DNA of 64,000 nt from Thiospirochaeta perfilievii (GTDB lineage Bacteria; Spirochaetota; Spirochaetia; DSM-2461), in NCBI RefSeq assembly GCF_008329945.1, contig NZ_CP035807.1, positions 1,054,001 through 1,118,000 on the forward strand, read 5' to 3'. The position numbers and the translations under genes were made by a program. Under the pieces are notes generated by a model, which saw nothing but the letters and a program-made list of their open reading frames with translations, made no database searches and had not been told where the DNA came from. This document shows positions 1 to 31,887 of this stretch, in pieces; the first letter of the stretch is position 1; each line of letters starts with the position of its first letter.

Positions 1-269
1 TCCATGGATGTAACTCCATATCGAAGGGAGTTACTATGGGCTACATGTTCTAAGAACTCAGCCTTATTTTCGTTCATATCAACCCGGGTATTTTTAGGTA
101 ACATAAAATGATTCATGCCACTAACTCCATTTATTCCATCATATAAACAGACGGAAATACAGGACCCTAATACTGTTGTAATCGCTTCACTTCGGTTAGT
201 AACATGGTACTCTCCAGGATAGATAGTTACCATTTTATGATGTGCCTTTAACAGTGTTTTACTTTTCAT
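1..269 (-). CDS. cheD: CheD chemoreceptor glutamine deamidase, N-terminal part (runs off the window start)
   Basis: Translating the minus strand from the ATG at 269 gives an open frame of 89 residues that leaves the window at position 1. It contains [14 protein letters not shown] and GMNHFMLP, which carry the conserved Thr, catalytic Cys and His of CheD. The family deamidates glutamines in methyl-accepting chemotaxis proteins and interacts with CheC in some bacteria. The start is supported by a purine-rich AAAGAG about 8 bases upstream and by the normal distance from the N-terminus to the Cys. Two chemoreceptors lie at 36-41 kb. The C-terminal half is not in the window. Confidence 0.88.
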
Positions 270-360
270 TTTAACTCTTTATCATCCATAATAAAAACCT
301 CATATAGTTGTTTAATAACAAGTATAGTTTAGGTGCTCTATCATTTCCAATAAAAATTTA

Positions 361-434
361 TGGAGCTAAAGGGACTCGAACCCTTGACCCCATCGCTGCC
401 AGCGATATGCTCTAGCCAACTGAGCTATAACCCC
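361..434 (-). tRNA. tRNA-Ala (anticodon GGC)
   Basis: The minus strand folds into a standard 74-nt cloverleaf. The acceptor stem GGGGTTA pairs with TAGCTCC with one G-U, the anticodon stem TATCG/CGATG encloses loop CTGGCAG, and the T arm has GGTTCGAGTCC. The discriminator is A and the CCA end is not encoded. It lies between cheD and a divergent lipoprotein gene. Confidence 0.96.
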
Positions 435-499
435 ATAATATGTAATAATTTATACAAAATAGTATTTATTTGTCAATATAATAACGTTATAATGATTAT

Positions 500-1165
500 A
501 TGAAAAAACGTATAATATTTTTAAATGTAATAATAATCCTACTATTTAATAGTTGTGTAACTTCATCTAACCATAACAGAGGTAGCCTAAGTGATGCTCT
601 AAATAAGGCTAAGGATGACTCTAATGATAGATATGTAGAGGATGAACCTGATAATGATTGGTATTATGAGGAACCTAATAACTCAAATGATGGTTGGTTT
701 TTTAATGATCGAAATAACCAAGATGTGGGAGTAAGGATAGATTCACAAAACCCTGTTGATCCAGAACCATTTTTTATTATATTTAGAGAGGGTTCTTCTG
801 TTTTAAATGGTCCATATTTTGATCAATCAATTGGTGGGGAACTCCTATTTGGAGGATCAGAAGAGGAGTATAATCTCTTTTTTTATGTTGGTTTAGATAT
901 GTTAGATCCAGATATGACTAATGACATATTAGAAGGAGTGAATAAGGATAGCCTATTTATGTTTACTGGGGGAATTGAATTAAGATACTACCCAATGAAT
1001 AACTTAAAATTCTTATCCCCTTATATATTAGGTCGATTAGGTGGAGCTCTATTATCATTTGAGTTTAAAAACAGTCTATTTGATGGAACAGAGTCTATTC
1101 ATTCAGACTCATTAGGAGGATTTACCCTGGATGCTGGATTAGGAGTTGATATAATTCACCTATAG
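500..1165 (+). CDS. Probable outer-membrane beta-barrel lipoprotein, ended early by an in-frame amber codon
   Basis: The 221-residue product starts with a lipoprotein signal (MKKRIIFLNVIIILLFNSC, Cys19 as lipobox cysteine). An acidic Asn/Asp-rich linker to about residue 85 follows, then alternating hydrophobic beta-strand-like segments typical of a small barrel. I do not recognise a family. The frame stops at TAG (1163-1165), but the same frame stays open for another 44 codons to TAA at 1298-1300 and ends in GYKF, a C-terminal aromatic typical of outer-membrane barrels. The listed product therefore lacks its last strands. Either the gene is inactivated, the stop is suppressed, or there is a base error. 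Spacing to the upstream tRNA is 65 bp. Confidence 0.7.
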   Translation: MKKRIIFLNVIIILLFNSCVTSSNHNRGSLSDALNKAKDDSNDRYVEDEPDNDWYYEEPNNSNDGWFFNDRNNQDVGVRIDSQNPVDPEPFFIIFREGSSVLNGPYFDQSIGGELLFGGSEEEYNLFFYVGLDMLDPDMTNDILEGVNKDSLFMFTGGIELRYYPMNNLKFLSPYILGRLGGALLSFEFKNSLFDGTESIHSDSLGGFTLDAGLGVDIIHL

Positions 1166-1300
1166 AGGTTTAGGCTAGGTGCTCTTTTAAAAGCCCAAAG
1201 CTACCTATACAGCCAAGAGACACTACAGGGTTTTCAAAATGATGTTTTTATAGCTACGGGTTTAATCAAACTAACTTTTGAGGCTGGGTATAAATTCTAA
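1166..1300 (+). other. In-frame coding remnant downstream of the amber codon at 1163
   Basis: The 44 sense codons after the amber remain in the frame of the lipoprotein gene and encode barrel-like strands (for example FIATGLIKLTFEAGYKF) ending in Phe at TAA 1298-1300. The last 35 bases overlap the 3' end of folK tail to tail. No start codon or ribosome site precedes the segment, so it is read here as the missing C-terminus and not as a separate gene. Confidence 0.6.
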
Positions 1301-1739
1301 CATCTTGGGAAGATACTTTATCTATATACTTATTAAAAGTTGAGTCTAACTCCCCTAGAGGAACTAGAACAAAGGCTCTCTCATACATTCTTGGATGGGG
1401 TATTGTTAGATCAGGAGTATTAATAATTTTATCTCCGTATAGTAAAATATCTACATCAATGATTCTAGGTCCCCATCTAAAAAGCCTAACCCGTTTTAAC
1501 TTTTTCTCCACATCCTGACAAACTAATAATAACTCACTTGCTTCTAAGTTTGTCTCTAAACCTAAAACACAGTTAATAAAATCATCCTGCTTCAAGTACC
1601 CCTGGGGAGCTGTAATATAGAGGGAGGATTGTTCTACACAGTTTATCCCTGGGTTTGCCTTTATTAATGAGATTGCTTTATTAATATTTTTTACCCTATC
1701 CCCAATATTACTACCAAGACTTAGATAAACTTTAACCAT
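1266..1739 (-). CDS. folK: 2-amino-4-hydroxy-6-hydroxymethyldihydropteridine diphosphokinase
   Basis: This enzyme transfers pyrophosphate from ATP to 6-hydroxymethyl-7,8-dihydropterin, the step before dihydropteroate synthase. The 157-residue product has YLSLGSNIGDR at the N-terminus, the FolK signature RWGPRIIDVDILLYGD with its metal-binding Asp pair, and IPHPRMYERAFVLVPLG near the end. ATG 1739 is chosen over the in-frame ATG at 1754 because TAGGAG lies 5 bases upstream of it. It overlaps the end of folB by 8 bases and is the last gene of the folE-folP-folB-folK operon. Confidence 0.95.
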   Translation of the reverse strand: MVKVYLSLGSNIGDRVKNINKAISLIKANPGINCVEQSSLYITAPQGYLKQDDFINCVLGLETNLEASELLLVCQDVEKKLKRVRLFRWGPRIIDVDILLYGDKIINTPDLTIPHPRMYERAFVLVPLGELDSTFNKYIDKVSSQDVRIYTQPQKLV

Positions 1740-2097
1740 TTTGTCTCCTAACAATCTCTACACCAAAATAGTCGTAGGAGCCAGGTACTGGAGCTTCTGG
1801 CTTCTTAACCCTAACTAGGACTGAATCTATAGAATTATAAGTAGATAAAACTCTTTTGGCGATCCCATGGGCTAGGGCTTCTATTAATTGGTAAGGCTCA
1901 CCTTGGGTTACTTCCTTTACTATTTCAAAAACTTCAGCATAACTGATGCTTTTAGCAATATCGTCTGTTCTACCTGCAGCCTCTAAATCTAAAAATATCT
2001 CCATATCAATAAAGAATTTCTGTCCTAATTTTGTCTCCTCAGGAAGTACTCCGTGGTATCCATAGAAACACATATTGTTTAAAAGTATTTTATCCAT
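1732..2097 (-). CDS. folB: Dihydroneopterin aldolase
   Basis: The aldolase cleaves 7,8-dihydroneopterin to 6-hydroxymethyl-dihydropterin and glycolaldehyde. The 121-residue product shows the family start MCFYGYHGVLPEE with its conserved Glu, the central SYAEVFEIV segment, and the KPEAPVPGSYDYFGVEI tail. ATG 2097 has TAGGAT just upstream. The in-frame ATG at 2112 lies inside the folP coding sequence and is less likely. It begins two bases after the folP stop and overlaps folK, so translation is probably coupled along the operon. Confidence 0.94.
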   Translation of the reverse strand: MDKILLNNMCFYGYHGVLPEETKLGQKFFIDMEIFLDLEAAGRTDDIAKSISYAEVFEIVKEVTQGEPYQLIEALAHGIAKRVLSTYNSIDSVLVRVKKPEAPVPGSYDYFGVEIVRRQNG

Positions 2098-2098
2098 A

Positions 2099-2947
2099 TT
2101 ATATCCTAACAATTTTATCAGTTACTAATGCAACTCTCTTATTCTCTTTTACATCATGGACTCTTAAAATGTCAGCCCCAAGGGATATCCCAATTGTAGA
2201 AGTAGCAAGGGTTCCCTCTACCCTCTCTTTTGGAGGGATATCTAATATTGATCCTATAATTGACTTTCTAGATGTTCCTAAAAGTAGAGGGTATCCTATT
2301 GTATTTAACTCCCCTAACCTAGCTAAGACCTCTCTATTCTGTTCTTGGGTCTTACCAAAACCAATACCTGGATCTAAAATTATTGACTCTTTTTTAATAC
2401 CAGCTTTAAGGGCTATTCGAATTGACCTTCTTAAGGATTTTCTTATCTCTCTAATAATATCATCAGAGTAATTACAATCCTCCTGGTTGTGCATTAACAC
2501 AACAGGAACATTATAGGACGCGATAACTTCTGCTAACTTATTATCCTTTAATAGACCCCATACATCATTAATAAGATCAGCCCCTGCTTCTAAACCAGCT
2601 TTGGCGACCTCAGCCTTTGATGTATCCAGGGATATAGTTATATCAAAATAATCTTTTATAGCCTTAATAACTGGAACAACCCTAGATATCTCTTCTTCAA
2701 TGGAGATAGGGGTAAATCCTGGTCTTGTAGACTCGCCACCAACATCAATAATATCAGCACCATCACCTATCATTTTTGAAACCTGGGCTAAAGCTTCCTC
2801 TAAACCTATAAACTCCCCTCCATCAGAGAAGGAGTCAGGGGTAACATTTAATATCCCCATAATATATGTTCTAGAGCCAAAATCTATAGTTAGATCTTTA
2901 AACTCAATTTTATTACTTCTTAATTTTGTATATCGTATATTTCTCAT
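2099..2947 (-). CDS. folP: Dihydropteroate synthase
   Basis: The enzyme condenses hydroxymethyl-dihydropterin pyrophosphate with p-aminobenzoate and is the sulfonamide target. The 282-residue TIM-barrel product carries both family signatures, MGILNVTPDSFSDGG and DIIDVGGESTRPG. It also has SLDTSKAEVAKAG, the DPGIGFGKT loop, GTSRKS and the terminal LRVHDV. It has an N-terminal extension of about 25 residues before the barrel. It starts two bases downstream of the folE stop, consistent with one transcript. Confidence 0.96.
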   Translation of the reverse strand: MRNIRYTKLRSNKIEFKDLTIDFGSRTYIMGILNVTPDSFSDGGEFIGLEEALAQVSKMIGDGADIIDVGGESTRPGFTPISIEEEISRVVPVIKAIKDYFDITISLDTSKAEVAKAGLEAGADLINDVWGLLKDNKLAEVIASYNVPVVLMHNQEDCNYSDDIIREIRKSLRRSIRIALKAGIKKESIILDPGIGFGKTQEQNREVLARLGELNTIGYPLLLGTSRKSIIGSILDIPPKERVEGTLATSTIGISLGADILRVHDVKENKRVALVTDKIVRI

Positions 2948-2949
2948 TA

Positions 2950-3510
2950 TTAAAACTTTATAAGCTGTAGTGCTTCAGCCCTTACCTTTGCATCACTTTG
3001 AAATGCTCCACGAACTCCACTAGTAATTGTTCTTGACCCTGGCTTTTTAATACCCCTCATTGTCATACACATATGTTCAGCCTCTACAACAACAATAACT
3101 CCTAATGGATTTAACTGCTTCTCTAAAGCCTCTACAATCTCTGTAGTTAATCTCTCTTGTAGTTGAGGTTTTTTTGCAACAGTATCCACAACCCTAGCAA
3201 GCTTACTTAAACCTGTAATCTTACCATTTCTAGGTATATAACCAATATGAGCTTTACCAAAAAAAGGAACAAGATGATGCTCACAACATGAATAAAAAGG
3301 TATATCTTTTACAAGAACTAACTCTTCGTGACCAGCCTGCTCGAAAAAAACTTGTAGATCATCGGAAGGATCCTTATTTATTGCACTGAAAATTTCTTCA
3401 TACATATTAGCAACTCTTCTAGGAGTATCTAATAGACCTTCTCTTTTGGGATCTTCACCAATAGCTTCTAAAATATCACGAACTGCACGTTCAATCTTTT
3501 CTTTATCCAT
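2950..3510 (-). CDS. folE: GTP cyclohydrolase I
   Basis: It converts GTP to 7,8-dihydroneopterin triphosphate, the first step of folate synthesis. The 186-residue product has the zinc-binding [17 protein letters not shown] region (Cys and His ligands), SKLARVVD and [14 protein letters not shown] with the second zinc Cys. Length is normal for the bacterial enzyme. It is the first gene of the fol operon. Its start lies 21 bp from the divergent 5-formyltetrahydrofolate cyclo-ligase gene, so the two promoters must overlap or sit inside each other's coding sequence. Confidence 0.97.
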
Positions 3511-3531
3511 ATTTATATATTAAAATAGATT

Positions 3532-4092
3532 ATGGATTTTAAAAATACCCTTAGAAAAGAAATATTAGAGAATCTTAACTCATTAGAACATATAGACGCT
3601 TTATCCAATAGAATAACAGAGAATCTTACATCTATGCCAATCTGGAAGAGCTGTAATAAGATATGCATATTTATAAGTTTTAAAAATGAAGTAAATACAG
3701 ATAAAATAATAGAAACCGCAAAAAAAGAAGGTAAACATGTCTATGCCCCATTAATTAATGGAAAACATATGACATTTCATAGAGTAGACAATATAAATAG
3801 GGAAGATTTAATATTAAATAAGTTTGGAATACTAGAACCTCCTAAAAATATTGATGAATTTATTCCAAATGATGATACCCTATTTGTTATTCCAGGAGTA
3901 TCTTTTACAAAGAGTGGAAACAGATTAGGCAGAGGTGGTGGTTATTATGACAGATACCTATCTAAAAACATTGTAAAAAACAGTATAGCTCTAGCATTTA
4001 ATATACAAATAAGAGATAAAATACCTACAGAGAGTTGGGATCAAAAGATGAAATATGTTGTAACAGAGACAAAAATATACGGAGGACTATAA
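3532..4092 (+). CDS. 5-formyltetrahydrofolate cyclo-ligase
   Basis: The 186-residue product belongs to the YgfA/MTHFS family, which uses ATP to turn 5-formyl-THF into 5,10-methenyl-THF and so recycles a dead-end folate. Visible motifs are a basic N-terminus (LRKEILENLNSL), FVIPGVSFTKSGNRLGRGGG with the ATP-binding glycine run, and YYDRYL. It is divergent from folE, fitting the folate theme. Its TAA shares one base with the ATG of the next gene (TAATG), indicating translational coupling. Confidence 0.94.
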   Translation: MDFKNTLRKEILENLNSLEHIDALSNRITENLTSMPIWKSCNKICIFISFKNEVNTDKIIETAKKEGKHVYAPLINGKHMTFHRVDNINREDLILNKFGILEPPKNIDEFIPNDDTLFVIPGVSFTKSGNRLGRGGGYYDRYLSKNIVKNSIALAFNIQIRDKIPTESWDQKMKYVVTETKIYGGL

Positions 4093-17087: not shown

Positions 17088-18229
17088 ATGAGATACAGAG
17101 ATCCATTCAAAGTATTTCCCAAAAAACTAAAATCAGGAAAAGTAGTCTATTATTATACGACTTATGACATGTTTAATAGGAGAAAACAGTTTAGTACAGG
17201 CTGTACAAAAAAATCTGATGCAAAGAGATTCTGCATTAACTTATTGGTTACTGATTCTCTAACAGGTTCCCCTACCCTCACTTTCAAACAATACACCAAG
17301 AAATGGTACGTTTATGGAGAGTGTAAATATATTGAATCGATACTTAATAGAGGACGAACCTATTCAAGGAGTAACTCAGAACTTTTTAGAGCTAAACTAG
17401 TAAATAAAATGTGGCCTTATTTTGGAAATATCTTAATGACTGATGTAAAACCATTACATTTAGAAGAATGGATAATTATTTTAAAGAAGGAAGGTTTAAC
17501 TAACGTAACTATTAATACTTATCTATCTGCTATCAAAACTATTTTCAATGAAGCCTATAGGCTTGGAGATATCACAAAAAACCCAGTGACTCATATAAAA
17601 AGACTTGCTACAGACTCTAAAAACAAAGGAACACTAACTACTAGTGAAGTAGAAAAATTACTAGATCCAATTAATAAAGGAATGATTTGGAATAAAGATA
17701 TTTACTACATTTTCACACTTCTAGCTTCACAGACTGGTATGAGAATTGGAGAACTATTAGCATTAACAAAAAAGATATTAAAAGAGATCACATCATAGTA
17801 TCACATTCATGGGATCGGAAATATGGTTTAAAAGAAACTAAAACTGGAAAATCAAGAATAGTACCGATATCACAAGAATTATATTCTATCTTATTGGAGT
17901 ACTCCTCAAGAAGTATTCATAACTATATATTCTCAAAAACAACACAGGATAAACCAATAGCAAACTACTCAATTAGGAAAGAGTTTTATAAAGCCTTAGA
18001 AAATATCAAGATATCAAAAAATGAGCGTGAAGAAAGGTCTATAGACTTCCATTCTTGGCGTAGATACTATAATACAAGGTTAGTAGTCAAAGGTTACCCA
18101 ACAGCCATTATACAAGCTATTTTAGGCCATTCTAAGGATAGTAATATGACTGAACACTATACGAAATTAACGATAAAAGACTTATCTATAGTAATAGAAA
18201 AGAATAAAAATTATAGGAATGTGTTGTAG
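17088..18229 (+). pseudogene. Tyrosine recombinase / integrase, one frameshift
   Basis: Two frames, 17088-17798 and 17894-18229, join into one product of about 380 residues if one A is added to the A6 run at 17768-17773. The reading then continues as LTKKDIKRDHIIVSHSWDRK. All catalytic elements of a phage-type tyrosine recombinase are present: Arg in TGMRIGELLAL, His-x-x-Arg in FHSWRRYYN, LGHS, and the nucleophile Tyr in TEHYTK. There is a core-binding domain at about 75-185 and an N-terminal AP2-like basic region. It is not an integron integrase, since no extra patch domain is visible. It lies at the left border of the accessory island and probably mobilised it. Confidence 0.85.
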
Positions 18230-19544: not shown

Positions 19545-19875
19545 ATGAGTAATAATACTACAGACATAAAATTTAAAAAAGATCCAGGAACATGGTCTTT
19601 GATGGAAAAAATACTACGGGATGGTGCAAGAAAAATGCTTCAACAAGCTCTTGAAAATGAAGTGGCTGAATTTTTAGAAAAACATAGTAACTCAAGAGAT
19701 GAAAATGGTCTGAAGTCCGTAGTAAGAAATGGCTATAATCCAGTGAGAGATATAGTAACTGGGATTGGTAAATTTGAAGTCAAAACACCTAGAATTGACG
19801 ATCGAAAACTACCTGAAACCGAAGACCGGTTTACAAGTGCTATATTGCCCAAATATCTAAGAAAAATACCCAGGG
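19545..19875 (+). mobile_element. IS256-family element, left part only
   Basis: The first 110 codons of the ORF at 19545 encode the N-terminal part of a mutator-type (IS256) transposase: ENEVAEFLEKHSN, VVRNGYNPVRDI, GKFEVKTPRID and SAILPKYLRK. The DDE catalytic domain that should follow is absent, and the sequence passes directly into unrelated coding sequence. Only the left end of the element survives. Its outer boundary upstream of 19545 is not defined. Confidence 0.7.
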
Positions 19876-20321
19876 GAAGTAGTAATTTTTGTGAATTAGA
19901 AAGTTTCCATTTATTTAAAGCGGAATTAGAAATTATAAAAGATAGAGAACACAGGTTTACTCCATTTAAAAATACTTGGTATTACTCTTGTAGAAATAAG
20001 GATGGTTTTCCTTGTGCTGTACTAGATGATTTTAACTTAAATAATAAATTTGATTTAGCATTAGATATTAGACATTATGTTAACCGTAGTGAACCTTGGG
20101 AGTTAAGATTACTCTCTAGAAGTAATGATATAAAAGATCTTCCAGAAATACTAAAAAAACAATTGAAAGAATATCATAGATTTAATTTTGTAACAGAAAC
20201 ACCAGAGTATGCAGGTAGTTCAGGTTATATAAAAACATTAGAAAGAGATATAATGCATCCAGAAATAATTGCTACTATAAAATCTCTTTGTAACACTCTG
20301 GTTGAGGTACAAAATGTTTAA
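19545..20321 (+). CDS. Chimeric ORF: IS256 transposase N-terminus fused to an unrecognised C-terminal region
   Basis: The 258-residue frame joins about 110 residues of IS256 transposase to 148 residues of other origin. The second part (starting near GSSNFCELESFHLFKAE and containing FKNTWYYSCRNKDGFPC and DLALDIRHYV) is not recognised. It may be the 3' end of a gene cut by the insertion element, possibly an upstream member of the defence locus that follows. A strong AAGGAG precedes the ATG, so the fusion could be made, but it should not be active as a transposase. It is separated from the Abi gene by a promoter-hairpin unit. Confidence 0.6.
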   Translation: MSNNTTDIKFKKDPGTWSLMEKILRDGARKMLQQALENEVAEFLEKHSNSRDENGLKSVVRNGYNPVRDIVTGIGKFEVKTPRIDDRKLPETEDRFTSAILPKYLRKIPRGSSNFCELESFHLFKAELEIIKDREHRFTPFKNTWYYSCRNKDGFPCAVLDDFNLNNKFDLALDIRHYVNRSEPWELRLLSRSNDIKDLPEILKKQLKEYHRFNFVTETPEYAGSSGYIKTLERDIMHPEIIATIKSLCNTLVEVQNV

Positions 20322-20453: not shown

Positions 20454-21398
20454 ATGAATAAAATATATGATAAACCTTACAAATCTGCAAAGCAATTAGT
20501 TGACTTCTTATTGGATTATAAACTAAATATTAGCAATCATGAGAGTGCAGAAAGTTTTCTATCAAAAATAAATTACCATAGGTTTAAGATATATTTAAAA
20601 CCATTATGGGATAAAAATAATAACTGTTATAACTCTGATTATACTTTTGAAGATGCAATAGAGCTATATAGATTCGATGATGAGTTGAGGGATTTATTAT
20701 TTACTATTATTGGAAGAATAGAGATAAAATTAAGAACGCGTTTAGATCATACAATATCTAATTATACCAATGATCCTTTCTGGTATTTAAATGATAAATG
20801 GTTTAATAAGAATTCGGCCTATCGTTTTAGATCAAAATTAAATTCTAACTTCTTACAATCCCAAGATAGTGACAGTTTACATTTTAAGAATAACTACATA
20901 AATGATAAGAATGCCAATTATAAAAATCTACCTCCATTTTGGGCTATTATAGAACTATCAACTTTTGGAACTATGATGGATATATTTAAAGCTCTGAATA
21001 AGGATGAATTTAAATTTAGTGGAAAAGAGAATGCCTTAGATACCCTATCTAAAGAGTTTGGAGCAAATAATTTAAAAGTGCTAAATTCTTGGATCGTTTC
21101 AATACGAGATATTAGAAATAAATGTGCTCATCACGCAAGATTATGGAATAGTAATTTAAGAGAACCGAGCAGTATAAAAAAACTTTTATCAAAACCTCCT
21201 GCCCATCCAAATAGAATTTATCTATTTTTTATTGTTGTAGAAATTTTATGTAATAATTTAGATATTGATATCAATATAAAAGAAGAACTTACAAAACTAT
21301 TTGGCAAATATCCAGCTGTTAATTATTTCAAAGATTCTATGGGAGTACCAGATAATTGGTCGGATGATATATTTTGGGAAAGAGGTGCTGTAAAATGA
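20454..21398 (+). CDS. Abi_2 (AbiD/AbiF-like) family abortive-infection protein
   Basis: The 314-residue product matches the Abi_2 family from its start (KPYKSAKQLVDFLLDY, INYHRFKIYLKPLW, ELYRFDDELRDLLFTIIGRIEIKLR) to its end. Members are linked to abortive phage infection. The segment IRDIRNKCAHHARLWN carries an R-N-x-x-x-H arrangement of HEPN ribonucleases, so RNA cleavage is the likely activity. The ATG follows an AAGG site. Its stop overlaps the pglZ ATG by four bases (ATGA), placing it in one operon with the BREX-type genes. The frame is intact. Confidence 0.85.
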   Translation: MNKIYDKPYKSAKQLVDFLLDYKLNISNHESAESFLSKINYHRFKIYLKPLWDKNNNCYNSDYTFEDAIELYRFDDELRDLLFTIIGRIEIKLRTRLDHTISNYTNDPFWYLNDKWFNKNSAYRFRSKLNSNFLQSQDSDSLHFKNNYINDKNANYKNLPPFWAIIELSTFGTMMDIFKALNKDEFKFSGKENALDTLSKEFGANNLKVLNSWIVSIRDIRNKCAHHARLWNSNLREPSSIKKLLSKPPAHPNRIYLFFIVVEILCNNLDIDINIKEELTKLFGKYPAVNYFKDSMGVPDNWSDDIFWERGAVK

Positions 21399-23922
21399 AT
21401 AAATTCCAAGAACCATTAGAGAAATTATTTGATAAACATCGAATAATATTCTGGTGTGATGAAGAAGTTGAATTGTTAGAAGAGTTTAACTCTGTTGATA
21501 TATTAGGTGTTGAGAAGATAGTTGTTTCAAATAATGAGTTTAGTGTTAAATATAAGATAAGTAGGGAATTTTCTGATAAGAAGTTTTTACTCTACTTTGA
21601 GGGTAAAGAACCGGACTATTTAGATGACTGGTTACTTGATATTAAACTTGCTAATTATACATTCCATACAACACCTGAAGCAATTGTACTACAGGAGCTG
21701 GGACTTGATTATCGGTTTAGAGATTTTATTAAGGCCCATAAAGAGTTCTTTAAGAGTAAAAGTAGAACAGAGAAGTTTAAAAAGTTATTGATAACCGATG
21801 TCGTTACTGAAGATGAACTTAGAATGACTATATTAAAAGCTGTTATTACAAGTGAGGCTATTAGTATTGAGGATCTTATTCTAAAACTATTATCTATAAC
21901 TACAGATAAACAAGAGAAGATATTTAAGGATCTAAATAAGTTTAATATTTCAAATTATTTCTGGTTAGTTATTAAAAAGAGTATAATTATCAATCAGATT
22001 CTCCATCACTATATGAACTCGCTATTGAGTTATTTAAAGCTGTTACAAGTTTTATTAATGGAGACTCTCTTATTTCCGTAGGAAGTAACTCTGCATCAAA
22101 TGCCCTATGATCTAGGATAAAACATATGATTTCCAATTGGAAACATGACACAAAGACATTTGTAGAATACTCTAGAAGGGTTCAAGAAGATCTTCATATT
22201 AAAAAGACACTAAACAGTGGTGTTGATATAAATGAACTTGCATCCGAAGATCAATATGATGAGATTGAAAAATATATAATTACTCAACTAATTGAAAAAA
22301 TAAACAGTAATCTAATCTCTTTAAATGACGTAGAGGTTATAATAAAACAGAGAGAGCAGTCTTTCTTCTATGAAGCATCTTTACCATTTTATGAAACCAT
22401 ACTTAATGGAGCTAAACTACAATGGGAGATAGAGTCCCTTAAAGATAAAATTAGTATTGATGATCTTGAATCTTGGGGAGATGAGTATAGTAAGCGACTA
22501 TATAAAGTAGATCTTCATTATAGAAACTTTATACACTCGTATAAACAGACTCAACAAAATCCAGTACTACAGAATCTATTTGATAAGTACCATAATTTGT
22601 ATAGTAATGATTGGTTATTACCACTAAACGATAACTGGCAAAAAACAGTAGACAGAACAGATACATGGAACACTACCCCCGGGAAGAGACAAAGAGACTT
22701 CTATTATTACAATGTAAAACCATTGATTGATAAAGGACAAAAGGCAGTAGTTATTATTTCTGATGCTTTAAGATATGAGATTGGAGTTGATCTAAACGAT
22801 AACTTAAATGCGGAGATGGTATACGAAAGCAAGATAGATCATCTATACAGTGAGCTACCTTCCTATACCCAATTAGGTATGGCATCACTACTACCTAATA
22901 GTGAATTAGAGATTAAAAATGACTGTAATGTATTAATAGACGGAATGAACTCAGATGGGACACCAAATAGATCAAAGATATTAACTAAGAATAGTGGAGT
23001 TCAATCACTAGCTATATCCTATAAAGAGTTTATGAAACTAAATTCTGGAAAAGAAGGACGTGAATTACTAAAAGAGAATAAGTTAGTCTATATCTATCAC
23101 AATAAGATTGATAAAACAGGTGATGATAAAGCAACAGAAGAAGATGTTTTTGATGCTGTTAACCATAGTATTACAGAGTTAAAAGAGCTATTAAAAAGAT
23201 TGTATAACATGAATTCATATAACTACTTTATAACTTCAGATCATGGATTCATCTATCAGGCTAAAGAGTTGGAAGAAAGTGATTTTATAGAGAGTAGTAC
23301 TACTGGGGATATTTGGAAACAAAACAGAAGATTTTTCATAGGTAAAAACTTGGAAAATCACTCATCATATAAAGAGTTTACTGCAAATGAACTTGGGCAA
23401 AATGGAGACTACACCTGTATGTTCCCAAAATCTATAAATAGAGTCCGTGTAAAAGGAGCAGGTAGTAAATTTGTTCATGGAGGAACTTCCCTTCAAGAAG
23501 TTATTATCCCAGTTTTAAGAATTAATAGAAAAAGAGAAGCTATAAGATCATTAGTAGATATTGATATTATTAAAGGTAAAGAGGAGATCAGTTCATCTAT
23601 TAAACCAATAAGTTTTATACAGAGTAAACCTATTGGTGATAAACTACTTCCAAGAAGAATAAAAGCTGCATTCTACAACCATGATAAAACTGTTATTATT
23701 TCTGAAGAGTTTGAGTATACTTTCGATTCAACTGATAGTCTAGAAAGACAGAGAGAGAAAAAGTTTACTTATCACCTTTCTAATAGAGCAACTGATGAGT
23801 TTAATAACCAGAAAGTAGTACTTGTTTTACAAGAAGCTATAGATGGTACTTCAGGCTGGAAAGAGTATAGTACATATGATTTTAGAATGAGTATGTCATC
23901 AACAATGGATTTTGATTTTTAG
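21395..23922 (+). pseudogene. pglZ: BREX phage-defence protein PglZ (alkaline-phosphatase superfamily), two lesions
   Basis: Translation from ATG 21395 runs to a stop at 22079, and the rest is open from 22126 to 23922. Adding one A to the A5 run at 21974-21978 restores IKKEYNYQ and keeps the frame to a TGA at 22108-22110. The same frame then continues SRIKHMISNWKHD without interruption. The repaired product would be about 842 residues, the normal size of type A PglZ. Metal-site motifs VVIISDALRYEIG and FITSDHGFIY are intact. PglZ is the signature component of BREX systems and acts with BrxC and PglX, which are absent here. Nine bases separate it from brxL. Confidence 0.85.
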
Positions 23923-23930
23923 AGGTATAA

Positions 23931-25958
23931 ATGAAAGACTTAGATATAAAATTAAACAAACACTTTTTAGGTAAAGTAGTACGAAAAGATCTCACAAAAT
24001 TAGTCAAGGGTAACGCAATTGTTCCAGCTTATGTTCTTGAATATCTACTTGGTCAATACTGTGCTACAGATGACAATGCTACAATTAATGAAGGTGTTGA
24101 GAGTGTTAAAAATATAATATCCAGTCATTTTGTTCATAGAGAAGAATCAGAACAGATAAAGTCAAAAATTAGAGAGAATGGTAAACACAGAATCATAGAT
24201 AAAGTCTCAGTTTCATTAAACGATAAACGAGATATCTATGAAGCTACATTTATTAATCTAGGTTTAAAAAAGATAGAAATCTCAGCAGATTTAGTAACAA
24301 AACATCCTAAACTCTTATCTAACGGTATTTGGTGCATTATAAACATGGAATACTTTGCTATAGAAGATGGGGAAACCGCTCCTTGGCATATAGGATCTTT
24401 AAAACCTATACAAATATCAAATGTATCCGTTGATGAATATAAAGAAGCTAGAGCTCAATTTTCAACGGAAGAGTGGATAGATCTTCTACTACAGTCTATG
24501 GGATTACAACCAGAAGAGTTTACTAGAAGATCAAAACTGATTCAGTTAAGCCGGTTAGTTCCATATGCAGAGAATAACTATAACTTAATAGAGCTTGGCC
24601 CAAAAGGAACAGGTAAATCACATATTTATTCAGAGCTATCACCACATGGAATACTTATATCCGGTGGAGAAGTTACAAAAGCAAAACTATTTGTTGATAA
24701 TAAAAGTGGAACAATAGGGCTTGTTGGTTACTGGGATGTTGTTGCATACGATGAGTTTGCAGGAACAGGTAAAAGTGTAGACCGGGGTCTTGTAGATATA
24801 ATGAAAAACTACATGGCTAATAAATCATTTTCCAGGGGTACAGAAGTTTTTGGAGCTTCAGCATCAATGGTTTTTGTAGGAAATACTGATCACAGTGTAG
24901 CTTACATGTAAAAACACTCACATCTTTTTGATGCACTTCCCTCTCAATACGCCGACACAGCATTTTTAGACCGTATCCATTGTTATGTTCCAGGCTGGGA
25001 AGTACAAAAACTTAGAAATGAGATGTTTACAAACAACTATGGTTTTATTGTGGACTACCTCTCTGAAATTATGAAGCAATTACGAAGAGAAGATTATACT
25101 CAGGACTTTAAAAAGTACTTTGTTTTATCTGATAGTATTACCACAAGAGACAAAGATTCCATAACTAAAACATTCTCTGGTCTTATTAAAGTTATGTACC
25201 CAGATGGAGAATACTCAGAAATTGAAGCTAAAGAGATTATGGACTTTGCAATAGAGAATCGTAAACGTGTTAAGATACAGCTTATTAAAATGGATGAAAC
25301 ATTTGAACATGTAGACTTTAGTTATACATCCAAGGCTACTGGAGAGACTTACACAGTTAATACTTTAGAATCTATTGAATACGGCTTTAATGAGGATCTA
25401 CAGGTTAAACATATGCATAGTGAAGATCCAGTATCTGATTCTGTTAATATAAGTTCTGAAACAACTCCTGTCAGACAGGTTATATTAAAAGAAGGTAATA
25501 CTGAAATTAGGGATAACCAAGAAGGAATTAGTTATGAGAACCTATTTGGGGATTACTTTGTTGGTGCTAAAGAGATTCTAATAGTAGATCCTTTTATTAG
25601 GATGCCTCATCAATTTAGAAACCTTATGGAGTTAATCAAGGTAATACTAACAAAGAAAGAGATTGGTGAAGAGATAACAATTCATGTTGTAACTGGAGTA
25701 GATGAGGATTACAGATATGAGTCGGATTCTCATTTTACCGAAATTGGAGAATCTATATCTCCGTTAGGTGTATATTTCTCCTATGAGATAAATAATGGAA
25801 TACATGATAGATCAATTGAAATTGATGATAAGTGGAAGATCCTATTAGGTCGTGGTTTAGATATGTTTCAGAAACCTCTTGGTAGATATGATATTGCTGA
25901 AATTTATCCTGAGATTCGGAAATGTAGAGAGTGTAATATTACATATATAAAAAAATAG
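23931..25958 (+). pseudogene. brxL: BrxL-type AAA+ ATPase with a MIT_C-like C-terminal domain, one in-frame stop
   Basis: The open frames 23931-24911 and 25023-25958 are in the same register, split only by TAA at 24909-24911 (probably TTA for Leu in VAYM-L-KHSHLFDALP). The 675-residue product has the BrxL N-terminal region and Walker A LGPKGTGKSH with GYWDVVAYDEFAG as Walker B region. MVFVGNTD and DTAFLDRIHCYVPGWE then follow. After IENRKRVKIQLIKM the usual Lon-like domain is missing. Instead residues from about 530 resemble the MIT C-terminal domain of MITD1: HVVTGVDEDY, IHDRSIEIDDKW, LLGRGLDMFQKP and a final CNITYI strand. BrxL is the DNA-binding ATPase of type I BREX. The stop suggests a decayed gene. 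Confidence 0.82.
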
Positions 25959-26184: not shown

Positions 26185-26427
26185 TTAAGCTCTATGTAGT
26201 ACTTTTTCTTTATCAAGTCTTTCAGATATCCATATTTTAATTATTGATTGTCGAGGAACACCTAGTCTTTTTGCTTCTTGATCTAATGAGTTTATCATCC
26301 AAGAAGGAAAATCTACATTAACTCTTTTTATATCATAATTTGGTTTTTCAACTTTTGATAAATCAAATTGATCTAAGATATCTTCTTCCCCTGCATCAAA
26401 TTTTTTATCCAATTCTGAAGCTTTCAT
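26185..26427 (-). CDS. brnA: BrnA-type antitoxin
   Basis: The 80-residue product has the BrnA layout: an N-terminal segment with DEEDILDQFDLSK-like acidity and a C-terminal ribbon-helix-helix-like part (VNVDFPSWMINSLDQEAKR, VPRQSIIKIWISERL). BrnA binds and neutralises BrnT and represses the shared promoter. It overlaps the 3' end of brnT by 23 bases, the usual toxin-first order of this pair. It lies at the low end of the cassette-like array. Confidence 0.9.
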   Translation of the reverse strand: MKASELDKKFDAGEEDILDQFDLSKVEKPNYDIKRVNVDFPSWMINSLDQEAKRLGVPRQSIIKIWISERLDKEKVLHRA

Positions 26428-26677
26428 ATAAATCCTCCTCGTTTTTTCTAGACCTTCTAACAGATATTATTCTTACATTTAATTCTCTATAAGTAATAAT
26501 AGCAGTCCAACATTTTCTATTTAATTTTGCTATGATTAAAAATCTTTCTTCTTCCAGGTTTTTTGATGGAAGTTTAATTAAATTTTCATCTTTCCATAAT
26601 TCTTGTGCTTCTAAGAAATCAATTCCATGTTTAATAAAGTTAGAATTACTTTTAATATTATCATATTCAAAATTCAT
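26405..26677 (-). CDS. brnT: BrnT-type ribonuclease toxin
   Basis: The 90-residue product shows the BrnT pattern: FEYDNIKSNSNFIKHGIDF at the start (the W-D-x-x-K-x-x-x-N-x-x-K-H-G-I-D-F motif in slightly altered form), ERFLIIAKLNRKCW and a final RIISVRRSRKNE. BrnT is a type II RNase toxin of the RelE fold that blocks translation. An inverted repeat immediately upstream is a likely autoregulation site. The gene is intact. Confidence 0.9.
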   Translation of the reverse strand: MNFEYDNIKSNSNFIKHGIDFLEAQELWKDENLIKLPSKNLEEERFLIIAKLNRKCWTAIITYRELNVRIISVRRSRKNEEDLYESFRIG

Positions 26678-27656: not shown

Positions 27657-27938
27657 TTATGATGCTGTTAATGTTGTATTAAAATCTAGATTTAGTCCTA
27701 ATGCATTACATACTTTTAAAAAAGTCATCATATTACAACTATTACCATTTTCAAGTTTAGATAATTGTTGTTGTGTAACATGAGCCTTTTTAGATACTTC
27801 AAGCTGACTTAAACCAGAAAGCTCTCTAGCTTCATGTATTTTTAATGCCAGTTCAATGAATTTTTTTTCTTCATCAAAAGATTCTTTAAAATCACTATTT
27901 TCTAAAGATGTATTTAGATGGTTTCTAAATGTTTTCAT
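27657..27938 (-). CDS. higA: HigA-type antitoxin, XRE-family DNA-binding protein
   Basis: The 93-residue product has a helix-turn-helix of the XRE class in its C-terminal half: ARELSGLSQLEVSKKAHVTQQQLSKLENG with the recognition helix at QQQLSKLE. It should neutralise the upstream HigB toxin and repress the operon. It overlaps higB by 14 bases. The stop lies just upstream of the attC at 27493, making higBA an integron cassette. Confidence 0.88.
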   Translation of the reverse strand: MKTFRNHLNTSLENSDFKESFDEEKKFIELALKIHEARELSGLSQLEVSKKAHVTQQQLSKLENGNSCNMMTFLKVCNALGLNLDFNTTLTAS

Positions 27939-28311
27939 TGTATTCCTTCCTTAATTTTTCTTCATTATATTTACTGAGGAAATCGTCTCTATACATTTTT
28001 GCTTTAGCAATTTCCTTTTTAGGTACTTTATTGGTTTTCTTGTTGAAACAATTTGTCAAAATGATAAAATCTTTAAAGCAAAAGAAATAAAGTATTCGAA
28101 CCTGTTTACCTGTAAGCTTTATTCTCAATTCATGAATCCCATCATCTAATATATCAGCATAGGGTCGTGGTAAAAGAGGACCTTTCTCTTCTAATATTGA
28201 AAGCCAACTTAATAATTTTGCTTTATTACTATTTTTTTGAGATTCAACAAAATCAAAAACTTCCGATTCTTGATTTTGTTCATAATAAATAATATTCCAT
28301 TTGTTTATCAT
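27925..28311 (-). CDS. higB: HigB/RelE-family toxin (phage Gp49-like)
   Basis: The 128-residue product has the RelE/HigB fold pattern: WNIIYYEQNQESEVFDFVES, ILEEKGPLLPRPYADIL, IHELRIKLTGKQVRILYFF and ILTNCFNKKTNKVPKKEI. The conserved Arg in ELRIK and the K-rich tail are typical of ribosome-dependent mRNA interferases. It is the first gene of the pair, and a strong inverted repeat precedes it. Confidence 0.88.
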   Translation of the reverse strand: MINKWNIIYYEQNQESEVFDFVESQKNSNKAKLLSWLSILEEKGPLLPRPYADILDDGIHELRIKLTGKQVRILYFFCFKDFIILTNCFNKKTNKVPKKEIAKAKMYRDDFLSKYNEEKLRKEYNENI

Positions 28312-30096: not shown

Positions 30097-31887
30097 TTAT
30101 TTTTTCTTAGTCCAAGCTTTTGTTTCTGACTGTGCATCTATATCTGTCCTATAAATCTTCTCTATATTAGGTGTTGTATTTTTTTCCAATTCTTCAATAA
30201 AAAAATCATATTTACATCGCCTAAAGTTTAATGCGGAACCTATAGACCAATCAGGATTTTCTTTTAATGTAGTAATGATAGATTGTAATGTGTCAGTATA
30301 ATAAATATATAAATGATGATAAAACTGAGAAATATTAATATCTAATGAACCTTGATGATTAATTTTATTTCTAACTCTATAAATTCTTCTTAATTGCCAA
30401 CTTATATTATTGAAATGTATTGTTAAGTGTTTTTTCATGTTCTTAGATGATTTATACATTCCTTCTTTGAGACTAAATAATCTATTTAATATTAGAGGAT
30501 TATCTGATACACAGGCTTTTATTTTGTTCAGTATTTTACTATCTGTATCAACGAGAAATATTTTATTTAAATCATATGGGTGAAATCTATAATTATTTGA
30601 TTTTTCCAGAAAATTGCTAATTTCTGTATCGCTTTGTATTTTTCTGATGTATGGTTTTAAGTCTTTTGATACTGCAATTAAAGTACTGTATAGATAATTT
30701 AATGTAGTAATTGCTGCAACATTTTTTGTAACATTTCCTATTATAGTACCAGCCTGATCCTGGAAAAGTGATTCTAATGCTATCCATAGATTAGTTAACT
30801 TAGCCTCATCATTACTCGACATTAAAGATAGCCTAAAATATTGTATAGATGCTTCTATATATCTCCTTTCTTCTAATTTAAATAATTCTAGAGATCTAAT
30901 TAAGTTAATATAATTAGAATCAGGATTTTTTGATTTTCTCATGTATAGAGGGATATCATCATTGTGTTTTACTATTTCAAAGTCATCATTTTTGATTAAA
31001 TCTATCGGATGCATTTTCTGATTTTTTATATCTGGTTCATATATAACTCTAAGAGCTAATAAGTTTCTTAAAAGTTGCCTACCTTGAATCGCAGCTGTAA
31101 TTTTATCAAGGCTTTTAACAGTAACTTTAATAACAGAGCAACCCAAGTCTTGATTTAAAAATAATTCTGTAAGTCTATTTTTTGGTAGATCATTTCGATT
31201 TACGCTAATCAACCTATGGCTACTCAAAGTTTCTAATTGAAAACTGGTTCTAAGCAAGTAATAACATTCAAATTCGATTAATTCTTTAGAAAATAATTGT
31301 TTTAATTTAATAAATTTTTCTTCAAATTTTTGTGTTGTTTGCAGTATTTGAAATGAATTTTTAATGTATTCAAAAGAGTAACCTATGTTATGTAGTTCTA
31401 CAGCTAATAATTGCATAGCAGTATTTAGTTCTTTCTTATTATTTTCTTCACTAAATAATATTTCTTCAAGATAGTCAAAATTTTTGTTTAGGTAATCATT
31501 AAGAATTATAATTCCATACTGGGCTAGTTCACTTATCTCAATAAAGTCAGGATTATCTGACTTTTTAATTGATTTATATTGTTTGCTAATCTTATTAGTA
31601 TAAAAAAGTAAGCTACTAAAATATTTATTAATTATATTATCACTTTTTATGGTTATCTCTAATTCTTCGATAAGGTCATTTAAATTTGTGTGGTGCACTT
31701 TTACTTTATTTGAGATAATTGCTGATTCTCTTATTTCATTTAGTAAGTACTTTACATTTGTTGATCGAACTTGCCAAGATTCATAAGTTTTATCATTGAA
31801 TAGTTCTTCCCACCTAATAGTAAAAAATTTATGTTTATCTTTTTCAATGTTCCATTCTTTCCATTTTTCATCAGTAATATTAATCAT
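30097..31887 (-). CDS. Large HEPN-motif protein, putative defence cassette gene
   Basis: The 596-residue product is not assigned to a named family. It lacks signal peptide and membrane segments. The C-terminal third shows the layout of ApeA-like HEPN domains: LTNLWIALESLFQDQ followed, about 140 residues later, by WQLRRIYRVRNKINHQG, which contains the R-N-x-x-x-H ribonuclease motif. The N-terminal half is helical and unique. It ends 10 bp before an attC, so it is probably an integron cassette gene. A role in phage defence is an inference from the HEPN motif and neighbours. No clear ribosome site precedes the ATG. Confidence 0.7.
   Translation of the reverse strand: MINITDEKWKEWNIEKDKHKFFTIRWEELFNDKTYESWQVRSTNVKYLLNEIRESAIISNKVKVHHTNLNDLIEELEITIKSDNIINKYFSSLLFYTNKISKQYKSIKKSDNPDFIEISELAQYGIIILNDYLNKNFDYLEEILFSEENNKKELNTAMQLLAVELHNIGYSFEYIKNSFQILQTTQKFEEKFIKLKQLFSKELIEFECYYLLRTSFQLETLSSHRLISVNRNDLPKNRLTELFLNQDLGCSVIKVTVKSLDKITAAIQGRQLLRNLLALRVIYEPDIKNQKMHPIDLIKNDDFEIVKHNDDIPLYMRKSKNPDSNYINLIRSLELFKLEERRYIEASIQYFRLSLMSSNDEAKLTNLWIALESLFQDQAGTIIGNVTKNVAAITTLNYLYSTLIAVSKDLKPYIRKIQSDTEISNFLEKSNNYRFHPYDLNKIFLVDTDSKILNKIKACVSDNPLILNRLFSLKEGMYKSSKNMKKHLTIHFNNISWQLRRIYRVRNKINHQGSLDINISQFYHHLYIYYTDTLQSIITTLKENPDWSIGSALNFRRCKYDFFIEELEKNTTPNIEKIYRTDIDAQSETKAWTKKK

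Follow-up and report, generated by a model that had tools for sequence, protein, structure and literature searches.

The frame at 23931-25958 of the window (the whole 64-kb stretch of DNA analysed here) is that of a BREX BrxL protein in which an MIT_C tail replaces the Lon-like domain, and the surrounding locus is what remains of a type-1 BREX operon, inactive now. MIT_C-tailed BrxL is a widespread and already published variant, of which the window copy is a decayed example. The best overall explanation, to which we assign a probability of about 0.6, is that of a type-1 BREX remnant with a phospholipase D (PLD)-tailed BrxL, whose tails would, in relatives, act on the DNA backbone.

Domain architecture and predicted fold of the BrxL tail

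The frame contains the following features:

23931..25958, + strand: brxL pseudogene with an MIT_C tail, 675 codons interrupted by a single stop (PADLOC PDLC02508)
23961..24353, + strand: BrxL_N domain, residues 11-141 (PF20442, E 2.3e-50)
24387..25319, + strand: BrxL_ATPase (AAA+) domain, in two parts on either side of the stop (PF13337, E 1.1e-74 before the stop and 3.8e-48 after it)
24909..24911, + strand: in-frame TAA stop of brxL, from the read-out of the frame
25524..25952, + strand: MIT_C domain, a MITD1-like PLD fold (PF16565; AlphaFold2 model; Foldseek matches to MITD1)

Re-reading confirmed the sequence as it had been quoted in an earlier, sequence-only reading of this DNA, including the TAA at 24909. 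The frame is not intact, as this stop interrupts it at a position that is a sense codon (Leu) in intact relatives. BrxL_N and BrxL_ATPase follow each other in the right order, both far above cut-off and with one stop between the pieces: the half before the TAA contains BrxL_N and the stronger BrxL_ATPase match, and the half after it contains the remaining BrxL_ATPase, followed by MIT_C. The two halves match positions 1-326 and 328-695 of the 698-position PADLOC model PDLC02508, and an intact Hymenobacter BrxL is 61% identical to the window brxL across 671 residues.

The MIT_C region makes up the last ~145 residues, occupying the place of the Lon-like domain, and covers 142/142 positions of PF16565 (E 3.8e-40, 137.5 bits, with a cut-off of 25 bits). 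Human MITD1 chains are matched by the window tail in a plain phmmer search as well (4a5z, 1.2e-22; 2ymb, 3e-22), and these matches, together with that to the Pfam profile, are far beyond chance and rule out a chance resemblance of motifs. For TIGR02653, the 675-position model of Lon-tailed BrxL, the match to the window BrxL ends at 479, and the match to the solved BrxL structure 8emc does not go beyond its residue ~485, ahead of the Lon-like domain.

An AlphaFold2 model of the last 172 residues, built with seven relatives, reached a mean pLDDT of 85.7 and a pTM of 0.81; the full-length model of an intact relative (L003) was poor (pLDDT 62.5). When the tail model was searched against the PDB with Foldseek, the top five matches were MITD1 chains (E 1.8e-15 to 1.4e-14, TM 0.74-0.77 at 32-33% identity, with a TM of 0.76 for the best match), followed by phospholipase D structures from E 2e-4, and no Lon-like structure was among the 50 best matches. 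A Lon-like tail is ruled out by this result and by the earlier ends of the TIGR02653 and 8emc matches. Profile, sequence and predicted structure thus agree on what had been proposed from the sequence, a BrxL core joined to a MIT_C/MITD1-like PLD fold in place of the Lon-like domain. The outcome that would have refuted the proposal, assignment of the C-terminus to the normal Lon-like domain or to no MIT_C-like fold, did not arise.

A conserved pocket without the HKD lysine

Two motifs of the tail correspond to those of PLD enzymes:

25803..25826, + strand: HDRSIEID, residues 625-632, an HxR(x)4D motif that corresponds to the PLD HxK(x)4D signature with Lys changed to Arg
25848..25862, + strand: GRGLD motif (residues 640-644), located where PLD enzymes have the GSxN stretch

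Across 59 distinct MIT_C tails, ten polar residues, numbered here as in the window BrxL, are near-invariant: D553, R557, Q561, N564, T588, H625, R627, R641, D644 and R663. Of these, Q561, N564 and D644 are invariant. H625-x-R627-(x)4-D632 and G-R-G-L-D have the same layout as PLD HxK(x)4D-GSxN apart from Arg in place of Lys, and the window tail accordingly does not have the HxK(x)4D catalytic motif of the PLD-superfamily HKD nucleases. The position of the HKD lysine is taken by Arg in 58 of the 59 copies and by Lys in none, and at residue 632, the place of the HKD aspartate, 42 of them have Asp and 15 have Asn. The PLD1 K898R and PLD2 K758R proteins are standard lipase-dead forms. Both mutants carry the same Lys-to-Arg change at the HKD lysine (PMC3648575).

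Since human MITD1 keeps 10/10 of the near-invariant polar residues (with Asn at 632), the same pocket is present in MITD1 and in the bacterial tail. Human MITD1, described as a membrane binder, keeps the same residues, and conservation alone is hence no proof of catalysis.

Decay of the locus and its neighbourhood

Two genes precede brxL on the same strand:

20454..21398, + strand: abiD-like (Abi_2) gene (PF07751, E 5.4e-43; PADLOC AbiD, E 1.2e-58)
21395..23922, + strand: pglZ (type A) pseudogene, with a frameshift near 21974-21981 and a stop at 22108-22110 (TIGR02687 on both pieces)

An intact Hymenobacter PglZ is matched by tblastn in one frame up to 21973 and in another frame from 21982. 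For brxA, brxB, brxC and pglX there is no match anywhere within the 64-kb window, and BrxC has no match in the whole genome, so that a working BREX elsewhere in this genome was rejected. The window brxL does not follow pglZ in an operon that also has brxA, brxB, brxC and pglX; it adjoins a pglZ remnant only, and it is therefore a BrxL by descent, outside any working BREX. The stop in brxL had been noticed in the sequence-only reading, whereas the broken pglZ and the loss of the remaining operon had been missed.

It is very improbable that the gene is still in use through the downstream 311-codon frame (25023-25958), which would give a free protein of AAA-lid and MIT_C. This frame is open from an ATG start and retains the residues of the pocket; however, it has no Walker motifs, the near-invariant Gly634 is replaced by Lys in the window copy, and pglZ is broken as well, with the other operon genes missing.

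In an unrooted tree of the 59 bacterial tails, with human MITD1 as the single eukaryotic leaf, the window domain lies among Bacteroidota BrxL (support 96/91), whereas the tails of two genomes of the same family as the window's (L009, L010) are on another branch. Hence, the window brxL was probably acquired from a Bacteroidota-like source.

The abiD-like gene is located directly upstream of pglZ, as a neighbour whose membership in BREX is not implied. Also upstream of pglZ, a chimeric frame (19545-20321) joins a truncated Mutator-family transposase start to an unmatched stretch and may mark the deletion that took the front of the BREX operon. A tyrosine recombinase at 17088-18229, broken into two frames with the SAM-like and catalytic parts, is likely what is left of the island's integrase. 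The brxL remnant is followed directly by genes for a BrnT-type toxin and a CopG-type antitoxin (26185-26677, - strand), and a pair of Gp49-like (HigB-type) and HTH_3 genes at 27657-28311 (- strand) is likely another toxin-antitoxin. The frame at 30097-31887 (- strand), downstream of an IS110 transposase, encodes a protein of 596 aa for which Pfam gave no match at E 0.001.

Distribution of MIT_C-tailed BrxL and other carriers of the domain

MIT_C was found in 9-10 of 393 genomes in a sample of the window's phylum, in 27-30 of 395 in a Bacteroidota sample and in 4 of 301 in a sample of the phylum of an Anaerolineaceae genome. The BrxL ATPase was above cut-off in 19 genomes of the first sample, where most complete long BrxL frames (697-762 aa) end in MIT_C and the others are mostly 481-508 aa in length, too short for any tail. 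A BrxL core is present in 59 of 75 MIT_C frames (some loci counted twice), and several of the remaining frames without it are fragments or end-cut copies. In the relatives, brxL comes after pglX and pglZ, and the operon is either complete or continues to the end of the locus; for instance, the complete order brxA-brxB-brxC-pglX-pglZ-brxL is present on the Hymenobacter plasmid NZ_CP095057, with pglX annotated in three pieces. The fusion read from the broken window copy thus exists in intact BREX loci, and its presence in many sampled genomes and plasmids rules out that it is unique to the window's genome. A phage-borne origin was likewise rejected, with no match in phage records or viral contigs.

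The novelty of the fusion that had been implied does not hold, as PDLC02508 spans the whole protein and the variant has been published. According to a BREX survey, which infers a nuclease too, the LonP part of BrxL is replaced by a C-terminal HKD-endoDNase with a Lys-to-Arg change in 1030 of 2913 type-1 BREX taxa; the survey credits HKD-endoDNase BrxL to an earlier paper (PMC12839542). Based on motif, position, PADLOC model and frequency, we equate this HKD-endoDNase, as described there, with the MIT_C tail; the identification is our own, and neither MIT as a word nor MITD1 occurs in the main text of the survey. In public annotation, such plasmid genes are named brxL or 'MIT C-terminal domain-containing protein'.

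Several other proteins carry the domain. A Thiodictyon plasmid (NZ_CP020372.1) encodes a dynamin-family GTPase ending in MIT_C (L019:5559-8414; Dynamin_N E 2.8e-20, MIT_C E 2.7e-21, weak PADLOC LeoA/LeoBC matches). It is a single case, with no second dynamin-MIT_C fusion found in plasmids, and plasmid searches with dynamin-type and MITD1-like domains gave no further architecture. At L082:6588-12548 and 36-3707, a 1986-aa DruE-like helicase with a C-terminal MIT_C adjoins a DrmMI-like methyltransferase, possibly as a Druantia/DISARM-like system with a built-in PLD-like tail. A third protein has MIT_C followed by many Sel1 repeats (L081:7113-10310), in a cluster with an SNF2-type helicase, a DrmMI-like methyltransferase and a Mrr-like PDC-S02 protein, and a protein in which MIT_C follows IF2_N is encoded on an actinobacterial plasmid outside any BREX locus (L020:7413-8462). 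The fusions to dynamin and to the DruE-like helicase show a module moving among defence-type proteins.

The helicase and methyltransferase company of MIT_C favours an action on DNA, while MITD1 and the dynamin fusion would fit a membrane role, dynamin being the sole carrier that speaks for membranes. The sequence-only reading had left a membrane-binding and a nucleic acid-binding module side by side, and this context leans towards nucleic acid without settling the matter. We consider it distinctly unlikely that the tail anchors BrxL at the inner membrane in a MITD1-like manner, so that restriction would take place at the site of phage DNA entry. The nearest solved structure is that of MITD1, all near-invariant polar residues are common to human MITD1, and the GTPase, a member of a family of normally membrane proteins, has MIT_C where other dynamins have lipid-binding parts. 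However, BrxL is a DNA-loading ring, the other carriers are helicases or adjoin methyltransferases, and the dynamin fusion was seen once only.

Proposed mode of action

PLD enzymes work with two half-sites. Each MIT_C tail of BrxL carries one HxR(x)4[D/N] half-site, and pairing of two tails would thus be needed for a complete site. Lon-tailed BrxL forms ATP-dependent rings on DNA, and two such rings are held together around the DNA by their C-terminal domains, which meet tail to tail and enclose a wide chamber (PMC10164562). By homology, the N-terminal and AAA+ parts of the intact MIT_C-tailed relatives are expected to form such ATP-dependent rings on DNA as well, with the PLD-like tails in the position of the Lon-like tails that connect the two rings, and presumably paired there. 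We hypothesize that the tails pair upon double-ring formation on DNA, by which a composite site would be completed beside the DNA. As this site would exist only in the assembled double ring, cutting or gripping would be confined to loaded DNA.

The likeliest action of the tail, at somewhat less than even odds, is cleavage of the phosphodiester backbone of DNA; that it would grip the backbone without cleaving is rather doubtful. A non-catalytic, structural tail, which pairs two rings or docks another BREX protein and whose pocket is a left-over from a PLD ancestor, is unlikely. The Lon-like tail that was replaced has no catalytic dyad and a role in ring pairing (PMC10164562; PMC12839542), and a structural role would fit the absence of the HKD Lys and the frequent Asn in place of Asp; yet ten pocket residues are near-invariant in 59 diverse copies, beyond the needs of pairing alone, and the domain recurs on unrelated carriers.

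Relation to eukaryotic MITD1

MITD1 was reportedly described by Hadders in 2012 as a PLD fold that binds membranes. The protein acts in cytokinesis (PMC9477494). In the tree, human MITD1 groups with eight tails (L018, L021, L042-L044, L071, L072 and L076; support 100/99), which come from Bacteroidota, the Anaerolineaceae-phylum sample and one gammaproteobacterial plasmid, and the grouping is stable after removal of the longest branches. Identity to human MITD1 is up to 48% in this MITD1-like BrxL subclade and 34% for the window domain. The long stretches of the subclade (L021, L084-L086) are BREX loci with a more divergent PglZ.

It is conceivable, if somewhat unlikely, that the membrane domain of MITD1 descends from the tail of a BREX BrxL subclade with its phosphate-binding pocket kept whole, and that the pocket, not the HKD triad, is used by both; the direction of descent is not readable from a tree that is unrooted and has one eukaryotic leaf. 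Were this descent true, an anti-phage module would have turned into an ESCRT cytokinesis factor. The tail is presented as an HKD nuclease in the BREX survey (PMC12839542), and the same fold as a membrane binder in the MITD1 work. With a shared pocket, there are two ways to read this contrast: phosphodiesters may be bound or cut by MITD1 as well, or else the BrxL tail may lack nuclease activity. If MITD1 is non-catalytic, the same argument counts against the bacterial nuclease claim. This link to MITD1, which is absent from the main text of the survey, is the part worth passing on.

Comparison with known systems

The window BrxL is most readily compared with three described proteins. It resembles the HKD-endoDNase BrxL of the survey (PMC12839542; PDLC02508) in having a BrxL core with an H-R-D PLD-superfamily tail for LonP and in following pglZ, and it differs in being broken and in the loss of most of the operon. 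The Acinetobacter BrxL (8emc, 8emh) is alike in sequence and family across its N-terminal and AAA+ parts, but has a Lon/RadA-like C-terminal domain, which the window BrxL does not. The C-terminal domain of human MITD1 (4a5z, 2ymb) shares the fold (TM 0.76) and the pocket residues with the window tail; however, in MITD1 this domain is joined to an ESCRT-III-binding MIT domain, whereas in the window BrxL it is joined to an AAA+ ring.
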